This document shows positions 1,600-13,179 of a stretch of DNA of 44,271 bases, piece after piece. The translations under genes and the position numbers were made by a program. The notes below the pieces were generated by a model. The model did not search any database and was not told where the DNA came from. It was given only the letters and a program-made list of their open reading frames with translations. The DNA is from Solirubrobacterales bacterium (GTDB lineage Bacteria > Actinomycetota > Thermoleophilia > Solirubrobacterales > 70-9), in the NCBI GenBank assembly GCA_025936755.1, contig JAICSS010000003.1, forward strand, positions 1 through 44,271, written 5' to 3'. Numbering within the stretch: the first letter of the stretch is position 1; every line of letters begins with the position of its first letter.

Positions 1600-1639
1600 C
1601 TCCGAACTTAAGTCCCCCATAGGGGCCCCAACCTCGGAG
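1600..1639. repeat. Left copy of the 40-bp imperfect palindrome
   Basis: The left arm CTCCGAACTTAAGTCCCC (1600-1617) and right arm (1622-1639) flank a CATA centre; 13 of 18 positions pair. The whole 40-mer matches the copy at 2595-2634 at 35 of 40 positions, in the same orientation. It lies between the convergent stops of the PH-domain gene and the AbiEi/DUF559 gene. It could act as a terminator, but it has no T-tract, and the match to the copy over the start codon suggests a protein-binding or recombination site instead. Confidence 0.85.
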
Positions 1640-1662
1640 AGGCGCACTTCGGGCGTCTCCGG

Positions 1663-1713
1663 GCGCGGCTCCCTGCGCCCTTACCTGCTTAGTGAGGGTG
1701 CAGGGAGCCGCGC
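1663..1713. terminator. Long hairpin over the 3' end of the AbiEi/DUF559 gene
   Basis: Arms 1663-1681 (GCGCGGCTCCCTGCGCCCT) and 1695-1713 pair at 18 of 19 positions around a 13-base loop. The right arm encodes the last residues (RGSLHP) of the minus-strand gene, and its stop codon lies in the loop. There is no clear T-tract, so a factor-assisted terminator or a processing/stability hairpin is possible. Confidence 0.6.
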
Positions 1714-2615
1714 AGGTGCGTCACGGTCTTCCGGAGGATGTCGAGGACGTGGTCGGGTTCGTACTTGACCTGCCGGTGCGAGAAGCGGAGCGGGGTGAGA
1801 CCGGCGGCGGTATGGGCCTGGAAGCGCAGGGCGTCTCGGGTCTGGGTTGCGGGCGTGCGGTGGTAACGCCAGCCATCCGTCTCGACGACTAGACCCAGAT
1901 CAGGCCAGAAGAAGTCGACCTCGAATTCGTTGACCTCGACTTTGGTGAAAGGCGTCGGCAAGCCGGCCGCAGCGGCAAGCGGGCGGAAGAGAAGTTCGAG
2001 TTCGTCGTCTGAGAGACGGAACGTGTGCTTGTCGAGGATCCGTCGGAGGCACCGTACGCCCGGGTCGCCAGCATGGGCGTCGAGGGCCTTCCGCAACGTG
2101 TCGGGATCGATTACGTTTCGCTTGTCCGCCTCATTGATCGCGCGCTCGAGGCCTTTCGGCCCCGTGACCGTCGCGAGATCCAGGAACGTCTGAACTGGCC
2201 GGGTGAGGGGGATGTTCAGGCGCGTGGTGATGGCGCTCGGCGGCAGGGTGGGACGGCGGTGACAGCGGAGACCGCGCAGCCGCGCTTCCGAGGCCCGCGT
2301 AACCGAGACGTCGATGTAGTCCTCGTGCTCCTTCCCGAACTTCCAGAACGCGGCAGCGCTGCGGTGGCTCAGCGCCGCGCCAGGTCCGCAAGCGAGGACC
2401 GCTGCCATCCAGCGTCCCTCGCGGCTCAAGCGTGGTCGCCCCACCACATAGACGCCTCGAACTACGGGATGCAACCGTCCAACCTGAACCCGATGCTTGA
2501 TCGCCTTTGAGCTGAAACCGAGCCCGATCAAATCACCGTGGGTGAGCACTCCATGCTGCCGCCGAGCCAGCGCCCACGCTCGGCGACTTCGCGTCTCCGC
2601 ACTTGAGTCCCCCAT
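1689..2615 (-). CDS. AbiEi-like winged-helix / DUF559 nuclease-domain protein (copy A)
   Basis: A 308-residue two-part protein. Residues 10-75 (ARRQHGVLTHGDLIGLGFSSKAI, then GRLHPVVRGVYVVG) match the N-terminal winged-helix of AbiEi-type antitoxins. ALSHRSAA and TRPVQTFLDLA follow the same middle-region pattern. The C-terminus has VNEFEVDFFWPDLGLVVETDGWRYH in two overlapping pieces: EVDFFWPDLGLVVETDGW holds the Asp and Glu of a DUF559/Vsr-like PD-(D/E)XK fold. No AbiEii nucleotidyltransferase toxin lies beside it, so it is not a standard two-gene type IV toxin-antitoxin pair. DNA binding is inferred from family knowledge; the target is unknown. The ATG (2613-2615) sits in the centre of a palindrome repeated beyond the stop codon. 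A paralogue lies at 11398-12366. Confidence 0.8.
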   Translation of the reverse strand: MGDSSAETRSRRAWALARRQHGVLTHGDLIGLGFSSKAIKHRVQVGRLHPVVRGVYVVGRPRLSREGRWMAAVLACGPGAALSHRSAAAFWKFGKEHEDYIDVSVTRASEARLRGLRCHRRPTLPPSAITTRLNIPLTRPVQTFLDLATVTGPKGLERAINEADKRNVIDPDTLRKALDAHAGDPGVRCLRRILDKHTFRLSDDELELLFRPLAAAAGLPTPFTKVEVNEFEVDFFWPDLGLVVETDGWRYHRTPATQTRDALRFQAHTAAGLTPLRFSHRQVKYEPDHVLDILRKTVTHLRGSLHPH

Positions 2616-2634
2616 AGGGGCCCTAAGTTCGGAG
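2595..2634. promoter_or_regulatory. Right copy of the 40-bp palindrome, over the start codon of copy A
   Basis: Arms 2595-2612 (CTCCGCACTTGAGTCCCC) and 2617-2634 pair at 14 of 18 positions around a CATA centre. Read on the minus strand, the centre holds the ATG of the AbiEi/DUF559 gene. AbiEi-family proteins are known to repress their own operons through inverted repeats, so an autoregulatory operator is the simplest reading. Little Shine-Dalgarno signal is present, so leaderless translation is possible. Confidence 0.7.
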
Positions 2635-2685
2635 CGGCTCTCTTCTCGCCCCTACCCAGCCCGGTTTTTGTGCTCGTTACGGCTC

Positions 2686-11376: not shown

Positions 11377-11421
11377 AGCGGTGTGCCTTATGGACCCATG
11401 CGGTCCAAAAGGAACACCGCT
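11377..11421. promoter_or_regulatory. 20-bp-arm palindrome over the start codon of copy B
   Basis: Left arm AGCGGTGTGCCTTATGGACC (11377-11396) and right arm (11402-11421) pair at 18 of 20 positions. The five-base loop, CATGC, holds the ATG of the second AbiEi/DUF559 gene (11398-11400). The arms differ from those of copy A, but the CCCAT centre and position are the same. There is no Shine-Dalgarno sequence; a weak TTATGG box lies in the left arm. The site also lies in the upstream region of divergent aroH. Confidence 0.8.
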
Positions 11422-12366
11422 CGTCACCTTCTGGCCGAGGTTGCGGCTCGGCAGCATGGAGTTGTTTCGCGACAGCAGCTGCGGGGCGCAGATATGACCG
11501 ATCGGGAAGTTGCCCGGGCCGTTCAGGCGGGCCGGCTGCACAGGGTGTATCGCGGGGCCTATGCGCTTGGCCACCCGAAGGTGAACGAGAAGGGACGACT
11601 CCTGGCCGCGACCCTGGCGTGCGGGATGGGTTCCGTCGTCTCCCACCGGAGCGCCGCGGCGCTCCTCGGGCTCCTGGATAAGGGGCCGGTGGCGATTGAC
11701 GTGATCGCGCCTCCCGAGCGTGGACGCAAGATCGACGGGATCCGGTTCCACCGCGTACGACCGCCACGGCTGCAGGAGACGGGCAGCGTGGACGGGATCC
11801 CTTGCACCAGCCCGGCGCGGACCTTCGTGGACCTCGCCGGCACCGTCGGCGACCGGACGCTGCGGAGCTGCTTCGAGCGGGCGGCGCAGCGGAAGCTGCT
11901 CGACGTCCCGGCGATCGAGGCGTCGATGGACCCGGGGCGCCGCGGGATGTCCTCGCTGCGAAAGCTGGTTGACGAATGGCGCCAGGCGGCGCCCGTGGCG
12001 AAGAAGGGCAAGCTCAAGAGCCCGCTGGAGGCCAAGGTGCTGCCGCTCCTATTGCGACGTGACCTCCCCACCCCACTTCTCAACGCCCCGGTCCAGATCG
12101 CCGACGGGCGCATCGAGGTCGACTTCCTCTGGCCCGAGGCCAAGTTCGTCGTCGAGGCCGACAGCCGCGACTTCCACGGCACCCGCGCCGCCTTCGAGCG
12201 CGACCGCTGGCGCGACCGGGAACTGATGCGCGCGGGCTACGCCACCCTGCGGGTCACCCACCACCAGGCCGAGCGAGAAACGAAAGCCGTCGCGGACACC
12301 ATCGCCTCTGCCCTCTCCGCTCGTCTCTCACCGGCGCCTCCGCACTCCCCGAGCGGCGCGGGGTGA
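11398..12366 (+). CDS. AbiEi-like winged-helix / DUF559 nuclease-domain protein (copy B)
   Basis: A 322-residue paralogue of the gene at 1689-2615. The winged-helix region reads AARQHGVVSRQQLRGADMTD, then AGRLHRVYRGAYALGHP. VVSHRSAAALLG and CTSPARTFVDLAGT follow the AbiEi-type middle region. The C-terminal DUF559 segment has IEVDFLWPEAKFVVEADSRD, with the Asp and Glu of a PD-(D/E)XK-like fold. The position matching GW in copy A is SR here, so the active site may differ. No toxin gene is next to it. The ATG is enclosed by its own palindrome, and the stop codon is the first part of a bidirectional hairpin. It lies on the opposite strand to both neighbours, which suggests separate acquisition. 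Confidence 0.8.
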   Translation: MRSKRNTARHLLAEVAARQHGVVSRQQLRGADMTDREVARAVQAGRLHRVYRGAYALGHPKVNEKGRLLAATLACGMGSVVSHRSAAALLGLLDKGPVAIDVIAPPERGRKIDGIRFHRVRPPRLQETGSVDGIPCTSPARTFVDLAGTVGDRTLRSCFERAAQRKLLDVPAIEASMDPGRRGMSSLRKLVDEWRQAAPVAKKGKLKSPLEAKVLPLLLRRDLPTPLLNAPVQIADGRIEVDFLWPEAKFVVEADSRDFHGTRAAFERDRWRDRELMRAGYATLRVTHHQAERETKAVADTIASALSARLSPAPPHSPSGAG

Positions 12367-12422
12367 GGAGCAGAGTCCCCCTCCCCACCTGCAAGTAGGA
12401 GGGGGCTCTGCTCCTCACCCCG
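12359..12422. terminator. Bidirectional terminator shared by copy B and rluB
   Basis: CGGGGTGAGGAGCAGAG (12359-12375) is repeated perfectly inverted at 12406-12422. CCCCCTCC (12377-12384) pairs with 12398-12405 after a one-base bulge, giving 25 pairs around a 13-base loop. Each outer arm contains the TGA stop of its own gene, so the convergent genes end symmetrically in one hairpin. It has no T-tract. Confidence 0.75.
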
Positions 12423-13110
12423 CAGCCGCCTCGCGCAACCGGGCGATCTCGTCCTCCGAGAGGCGACGCGCGTCTCCCACCTTCAGACCACCGAGCCGCA
12501 GCGGGCCGAAGGAGACCCGCCGCAGCGCCACCACCTCGTTCCCCACCGCTTCCAGCATCCGCCGCACCTGGCGGTTGCGGCCTTCGCGCAGCGTGATCTC
12601 GATCTCGCGTTCAGCGAGACGCCGCACCTTCGCCGGCGCGGTCGGGCCGTCCTCCAGCTCGACGCCCGCACGCAGCCGCTCGAGGTCCCGATCCGCGATC
12701 GACGCCCGCAGCCGCGCCCGGTAGGTCTTCGGCACCTCGTAGCGAGGGTGCGTCAGGCGATTCGCCAGCTCGCCGTCGTTCGTCAGCAGCAATAGCCCGG
12801 TCGAATCCGCGTCGAGCCGCCCCACCGGATACAGCCGCGCCTCCGTCTCCACCAGCTCAACCACCGCCGGCCGATCCCCTGGCTCCCGCGCCGTCGAGAC
12901 CACTCCCTCCGGCTTGTTCACCGCCCAGACCTCGCGCGCCTCAGCCGCCACCGGGGCCCCGTTGACCCGCACGTCGTCCCCCACCTCGACGTCCCGCGCC
13001 GGGTCCGTCACCACCTCTCCGCCGACGGTCACCACCCCCTTGGCAACGATCTCCTCCGCCCTCCTCCTCGAAGCGACGCCCCCATGGGCGAGAAATTTGG
13101 CGAGCCTCAT
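12415..13110 (-). CDS. rluB: Pseudouridine synthase, RluB/RsuA family
   Basis: Converts a uridine of ribosomal RNA to pseudouridine. MRLAKFLAHGGVASRRRAEE is an S4 RNA-binding domain. NKPEGVVSTA, then YPVGRLDADSTGLLLLTNDG with the catalytic Asp, and GRNRQVRRMLEAVGNEV are RsuA/RluB/RluE motifs. Because it is encoded beside scpA and scpB, RluB (23S rRNA) is the likely subtype. The ATG at 13110 gives 231 residues and the family N-terminus. An in-frame TTG at 13134 has a better ribosome site (GGGGAGGG) and is an alternative start. Confidence 0.93.
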   Translation of the reverse strand: MRLAKFLAHGGVASRRRAEEIVAKGVVTVGGEVVTDPARDVEVGDDVRVNGAPVAAEAREVWAVNKPEGVVSTAREPGDRPAVVELVETEARLYPVGRLDADSTGLLLLTNDGELANRLTHPRYEVPKTYRARLRASIADRDLERLRAGVELEDGPTAPAKVRRLAEREIEITLREGRNRQVRRMLEAVGNEVVALRRVSFGPLRLGGLKVGDARRLSEDEIARLREAAAG

Positions 13111-13112
13111 GA

Positions 13113-13179
13113 GGAGGGTCGGGGGAGGGGCCAACGGACCCTCCCCATCTTTGTCCGGAGGGCCCTTCCCCGACCCTCC
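13113..13179. repeat. Long hairpin between scpB and rluB
   Basis: GGAGGGTCGGGGGAGGGGCC (13113-13132) pairs with 13160-13179 at 18 of 20 positions around a 27-base loop. It lies after the scpB stop and right before the rluB ATG. It could attenuate or stabilise rluB mRNA. If rluB starts at the TTG at 13134, the ribosome site lies in the loop. Confidence 0.6.

Follow-up and report, generated by a model that had tools for sequence, protein, structure and literature searches.

Private start-codon palindromes and a residue-to-base code in a family of AbiEi–nuclease fusion genes from Solirubrobacterales

The stretch of 44,271 nucleotides (the window), from contig JAICSS010000003.1 of the Solirubrobacterales bacterium assembly GCA_025936755.1, carries near its left end a gene for an AbiEi-type winged-helix protein joined to a Vsr-like nuclease, together with two direct copies of a 40-bp palindrome, one of which is centred on the gene's own start codon. 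This gene is a member of a large family encoding nucleases in soil bacteria, each with its own palindrome. Two residues of the recognition helix correspond to two base pairs of the palindrome, which makes it very probable that the winged helix of each protein recognises its own palindrome in duplex form. It appears likely that the AbiEi–nuclease binds this private palindrome and represses its own gene, and that the same palindrome is duplicated and dispersed in a manner resembling repetitive extragenic palindromic (REP) sequences. The features of the window locus are the following.

1689..2615, minus strand: gene of 308 aa for an AbiEi-type winged-helix protein with a Vsr-like nuclease, ATG at 2613-2615 (Pfam, AlphaFold model, fold matches).
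2595..2634, minus strand: palindrome at the start with the ATG at its centre, putative operator (repeat, family-wide start palindromes).
1600..1639, minus strand: second palindrome copy, about 50 bp past the stop codon (35/40 identity).
2644..2652, minus strand: element GGGGCGAGA, roughly 30-38 nt upstream of the ATG, possibly -35-like or operator-linked (aligned consensus GGGGG-N-GA).
2625..2627, minus strand: conserved CTT at -12..-10, -10-like, mirrored by AA/AAG in the other arm (aligned consensus).
2619..2621, minus strand: predicted contacts of K37 and K40 in the half-site, namely C at pair 5 (2619) and G at pair 7 (2621).
2484..2510, minus strand: recognition helix, residues 36-44, with K37 and K40 (model secondary structure, coevolution peak).
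2022..2606, minus strand: predicted AbiEi-antitoxin fold, residues 4-198 (6y8q, Z 12.5 across 182 residues).
1707..2012, minus strand: predicted Vsr/EDxHD-type nuclease domain, residues 202-303 (3r3p, Z 13.0; 1cw0, Z 10.5).
1663..1713, minus strand: long hairpin over the stop codon, probable terminator.

An earlier note on this DNA, made from its letters alone, had described two palindromes in the same orientation enclosing one gene, the right one centred on the gene's ATG. Both observations hold: the copies agree at 35/40 positions in direct orientation (31/40 if inverted), the next-best match to the 40-mer inside the 44-kb window reaches 25/40, and the right copy is indeed centred on the ATG. 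The bracket that they were said to form consists of two real copies, but its outline is corrected here, the left copy standing about 50 bp beyond the stop codon while a separate hairpin overlaps that codon. The self-complementary positions of the two copies amount to 28/40 and 30/40. Taken singly, the start palindrome falls at the 89th percentile among 160-nt tiles of the GC-rich window, and it is considered more than a chance structure because of its repetition, the ATG at its centre and the context provided by the family.

The window genome carries 13 genes combining the AbiEi_4 and DUF559 domains, and every genome of the genus has 7-18 of them. Members were found in 45/50 genomes of the organism's taxonomic family (1-19 each), in 147/201 genomes of its order and in 76/198 sampled genomes of the actinobacterial phylum, the named relatives being Solirubrobacterales/Thermoleophilia. 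The genomes are mostly metagenome-assembled; that of the window (G000, where G, C and L numbers designate genomes, contigs and loci) has a contamination of 4%, and its contig C8 may derive from another strain. Most members in the genus have a private palindrome of 40-50 bp in the start region, usually with the ATG at its centre. A palindrome score of at least 13 in the start region was reached by 60% of 80 genus members vs 0.9% of 1368 control windows, and a start-centred palindrome was present in 82/160 unique members. Two layouts were distinguished, with the palindrome centre either within about 1 nt of the start codon (layout A) or just inside the open reading frame (ORF), about 29 nt past the ATG (layout B). 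The letters of the palindromes differ even between orthologues, and the inner half varies almost independently of the outer one (correlation 0.07). A literature search retrieved no paper on DUF559/AbiEi_4 palindromes.

When members are aligned on their ATG, they share GGGGG-N-GA at -38..-30 and CTT at -12..-10, a geometry that suggests a promoter with a leaderless start. The pattern GGGGNGA-N17..20-CTT-N9..11-ATG was matched 10 times in the 2.4-Mb genome, 9 of the matches being family members, and its reversed control 0 times. The tenth match (G000:C16, L186) precedes a different, non-family ORF and was taken as chance.

The residue-to-base code emerged from mutual information between 84 proteins and their palindromes, computed over about 6,000 residue–base cells with the upstream, non-coding arm only. 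The top two cells joined residue 37 to pair 5 (Z 7.85) and residue 40 to pair 7 (Z 7.11), both residues lying in the recognition helix one turn apart; after permutation of the palindromes the mean maximum Z was 5.67, and 7.11 was reached in 6/200 trials. At pair 5, K/R at residue 37 goes with C, D/E with G and M with T, while at pair 7, D/E at residue 40 goes with C, K/R with G and S/T with T. This rule is correct for 41/50 members at residue 37 and 50/64 at residue 40 (permuted means 17.3 and 22.1). The code was derived from one data set and the held-out tests are modest in size: for residue 40, it was correct in 21/26 members with a palindrome not centred on the start, none of them used in deriving the rule (p=5e-5), and in 8/11 held-out start-centred members. 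Among disjoint close pairs in which the residue class had changed, 17/24 and 18/32 follow the code and 0 are reversed, and in other actinobacterial classes 6/6 assignable predictions were right. The window protein, with K37 and K40, has C and G in its site, as the code demands. Initial sliding-window Mantel tests had given marginal peaks only, the site-wise mutual information and the matched pairs being clearer. Couplings of pair 1 and pair 12 with scattered residues reflect subfamilies and were left uninterpreted, and recognition of the outer half by aa 117-150, 225-234 and 255-264 is suggestive only. The earlier proposal that the gene is self-regulated through its own palindrome gains from this code, which links, at the level of sequence covariation, the recognition helix of each protein to its own palindrome.

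The position of the ATG in the loop of a strong potential hairpin could also mean that the palindrome acts as RNA, controlling translation initiation at this codon in a way that involves no DNA recognition. Mismatches between the arms do not show the expected signature, G-U pairs (40) not being in excess over A-C (59), which indicates that the symmetry is kept at the DNA level. Moreover, the code lies in a recognition helix and is specific, and layouts with the palindrome inside the ORF keep the same code. The RNA hairpin was accordingly disfavoured and is considered highly improbable, the code making duplex reading by the winged helix the preferred interpretation.

The window protein matches AbiEi_4 (PF13338) and DUF559 (PF04480), both above the Pfam gathering cut-offs, but gave nothing above cut-off against NCBIfam and no match against PHROGs. 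Its AlphaFold (AF2) model, with a pLDDT (predicted local distance difference test) of 90.7, comprises a first part resembling AbiEi and Rv2827c (1zel, Z 8.6, in addition to 6y8q), with an N-terminal winged helix as in these type IV toxin–antitoxin proteins, and a second part that is closest to I-Bth0305I and then to Vsr. Five residues of the latter (E207, D234, E245, D247 and H252) are 99-100% conserved across 225 members, a level of conservation from which catalysis is almost certainly used.

By fold the family is AbiEi, but it is not an AbiE system. AbiEi binds two 23-bp repeats, 3 bp apart, that overlap its promoter (PMC7319586), and this operator of long inverted repeats has the same size as the palindromes described here. 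However, an adjacent gene for the DUF1814 toxin (AbiEii) is absent, metK and a bPH_2 gene flanking the window gene and its orthologues, which bears out the earlier remark that the layout is not that of the two-gene AbiE. The fusion to a nuclease, the many paralogues with private palindromes and the dispersal of the palindromes are further differences. The nuclease domain shares with I-Bth0305I and Vsr the EDxHD / PD-(D/E)XK fold and the conserved acidic and histidine residues, but is fused to AbiEi instead of other DNA-binding parts, and no intron is present; in the model, the likeness to Vsr, a mismatch endonuclease that nicks T:G mismatches in Dcm context, is one of fold only. Another comparison is offered by WhiA, which PMC3781837 and PMC11701221 present as an actinobacterial transcription factor combining a homing-endonuclease-related protein with a helix-turn-helix. 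WhiA is single copy and has an unrelated nuclease fold, whereas the catalytic residues of the present family are strictly conserved. The nuclease fold of WhiA is LAGLIDADG.

The note had also suggested that the locus might be a mobile cassette; on this view the gene between the two palindromes would excise or home and leave one solo palindrome behind. This is improbable. The homing-endonuclease-type fold, the recurrence of the palindrome–gene–palindrome bracket and the solo copies of sister members (see below) speak in its favour, but the metK–gene–bPH arrangement is kept in 9 genomes of the genus and synteny is likewise fixed at other loci. The orthologues next to metK in these genomes share 56-69% protein identity with the window gene, with start palindromes whose letters are mostly unrelated. 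In G005, the one genome without the gene at this site, another small ORF is found there, with neither a solo palindrome nor an excision scar, and a search of the window genome for the 40-mer returned the two bracket sites and the orthologous locus on contig C8, with no solo copies. Free-standing homing endonucleases share the nuclease fold and catalytic residues, but in classical homing the insertion disrupts the recognition site, which here is intact in the gene-bearing allele. The window gene is thus an old resident beside metK, there since before the radiation of the genus, and not an excisable cassette; of the supposed mobility, what stands is that bracketing recurs and that the palindromes of sister members are dispersed and polymorphic at orthologous sites. 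With the locus on contig C8 (G000:C8:1-2973, L002), the assembly contains the metK locus in two versions, 95% identical at the metK end and 67% in the gene; the second may come from a contaminating relative or a strain variant.

Copies of the palindrome equivalent to the downstream one of the window were found 3' of the orthologues L002 and L014, the downstream copy being common to L001, L002 and L014 only. Across the family, a member's own palindrome was present at its stop codon in 19/132 cases vs 0/1045 for the palindromes of other members, so the palindrome–gene–palindrome bracket is a recurring architecture. In one member, L067 (G007:C98:8337-12200), a third copy lies 825 nt beyond the stop, past an opposite-strand thioredoxin-like ORF.

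Some palindromes have spread much further. The palindrome of L053/L063/L069 has 67, 47, 43, 27, 13 and 12 copies in six genomes and 0 in 44 other genomes and in the reversed control, and in a second group 7 copies (L006/L011, window's genome) and 11 copies (L059, G002), mostly solo, were counted; these figures come from exact patterns and are lower bounds. Dispersal follows the resident gene: the dispersed inner arms of G006 are 0.86 similar to L053, those of other genomes 0.22-0.41, and in the second group the inner arms resemble the local member. Solo copies of the L172, L189 and possibly L030 palindromes were also seen in the same genome as the member. Copies labelled R1 read GTTGATGGGCC..GGCCCATCAAC. 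Presence/absence polymorphism was observed at orthologous sites, with a palindrome at L381:4475 in G001 opposed to 10 nt in G010 and G007, and another at L382:18171 in G010 opposed to 15 nt in G008; at one orthologous site both G001 and G006 have a palindrome, each with the inner arm of its own genome. A crude ORF caller placed 9/39 solo copies inside ORFs, a figure that is not trusted. The intergenic L382:18171 site behaves as a hot spot, differing palindromic inserts being found across species including G006, G007 and G011, and none in G008. Members whose palindromes are highly dispersed (G006:C100, G010:C95, G011:C102) are found near the ends of contigs or on contigs that are very short, as though assemblies were broken by the repeats, and the gene matching the dispersed palindromes of G001 was not found.

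One may ask whether the palindrome is simply an AbiEi-style operator of a pure autoregulator. The nuclease would then have another target, such as invading DNA, or serve as a toxin, and the dispersed palindromes would form an unrelated regulon or be terminators, coevolving with the protein. The AbiEi precedent, the code and the placement of the palindrome on the start codon all suit this explanation, as does the frequent location of solo R1 copies of G006 at gene ends, and it remains a serious if somewhat doubtful contender. However, near-identical copies number in the dozens, their inner arms are specific to each genome and their presence at orthologous sites varies, all of which looks like amplification, and the absolute conservation of the nuclease site would need a separate explanation. 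Alternatively, a different enzyme or recombination could spread solo palindromes that merely carry the binding sites of these proteins. A family of hairpins with a CAGGCTGTG loop, dispersed in the same genomes with no known partner, shows that such a situation is conceivable, but the match between dispersed copies and the member of the same genome makes it unlikely here. These hairpins form a separate dispersed family, near-perfect and 50-62 nt long, with a conserved CAGGCTGTG/CACAGCCTG loop, variable stems and no partner gene identified; they occur at L375, L376, L377 (e.g. 12404-12465), L379, L380, L382, L383 and L386.

The closest parallel for the dispersal is the REP/RAYT system (REPtrons, REPINs), in which palindromes flank an enzyme gene and have relatives scattered over the same genome, mainly between genes, enzyme and palindrome coevolving (PMC8266576, PMC3733652). 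The likeness concerns the dispersed flanking palindromes of the L053/L063/L069 and L006/L011/L059 groups and not the window's own palindrome. REP palindromes obey a GTAG tetranucleotide rule at their end (PMC3733652), and the RAYT, an HUH tyrosine transposase, works on hairpins that are single-stranded and bear GTAG tags. In the present family, by contrast, the winged helix would read duplex DNA, the enzyme is Vsr-like, the start codon lies within the palindrome and the ends lack GTAG. The family would work like a REPtron without being one, given its unrelated enzyme and the lack of GTAG ends.

In the model that we favour, the product of each gene would be a single chain in which a DNA-binding part of AbiEi type is followed by a Vsr-like (homing-endonuclease-type) nuclease, and it would bind the private palindrome of its gene as a dimer, one protomer to each arm. 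The inner half of each arm would be read by the N-terminal winged helix, residue 37 specifying pair 5 and residue 40 pair 7 from the dyad. Binding would repress the gene, as with AbiEi, because the palindrome covers the promoter and the start codon. The palindrome would be a duplicating unit as well: some genes would have gained a copy at their 3' end, and the palindromes of some members would have dispersed as solo copies to mostly intergenic places of the same genome in REP-like fashion, a spreading probably helped by nicking or cutting by the nuclease. The window, with its start operator and one nearby copy, would represent a member whose palindrome is undispersed.

Several points weigh against this model. 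Held-out support for residue 37 is weak (7/13 in layout B, p=0.05, and 4/8 in layout A). The downstream copies at L002 and L014 mismatch the code of the local protein, and can therefore be viewed as nearby, perhaps relic, copies. The palindrome of the window gene shows imperfections and has no dispersed copies. A nuclease linked to the reader of the palindrome is no proof that the nuclease moves palindromes, and an active nuclease with an intact site in its own gene would need some restraint.

A second family member of the window and its surroundings complete the description.

11398..12366, plus strand: second family member, 322 aa.
11377..11421, plus strand: start-centred palindrome of the second member (AGCGGTGTGCCTTATGGACCCATGCGG..), its letters unrelated to those of the first member's.

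A further strong palindrome, with a score of 18, lies at 13113-13179, shortly 3' of this gene. Long hairpins that overlap stop codons or come directly after them are found at the 3' ends of L007, L008, L011, L045 and L058, as at 1663-1713 in the window; some of those in family genes have a loop like CACCTGCAAGTAGG and are unlike the start palindromes. They may be terminators or a second kind of site, that of the window looking like a terminator.

With the code, a large family of winged-helix nucleases provides a natural series of long DNA sites that look programmable, and an explanation is offered for what the widespread actinobacterial AbiEi_4+DUF559 genes recognise, a subject for which the searched library yielded no paper. 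A bolder view, put forward tentatively, is that these are self-targeting nucleases in which one palindrome serves as promoter-operator, recognition site and replicating unit, copies being planted or converted genome-wide by cuts or nicks, while two fast-changing helix residues repeatedly found insulated lineages; it would amount to a second, independent invention of a REP/transposase-like system, on double-stranded DNA. The data suggest that dispersed palindromes arose more than once with unrelated enzymes, and how REP-like palindromes spread becomes testable in a system whose enzyme and site are defined.
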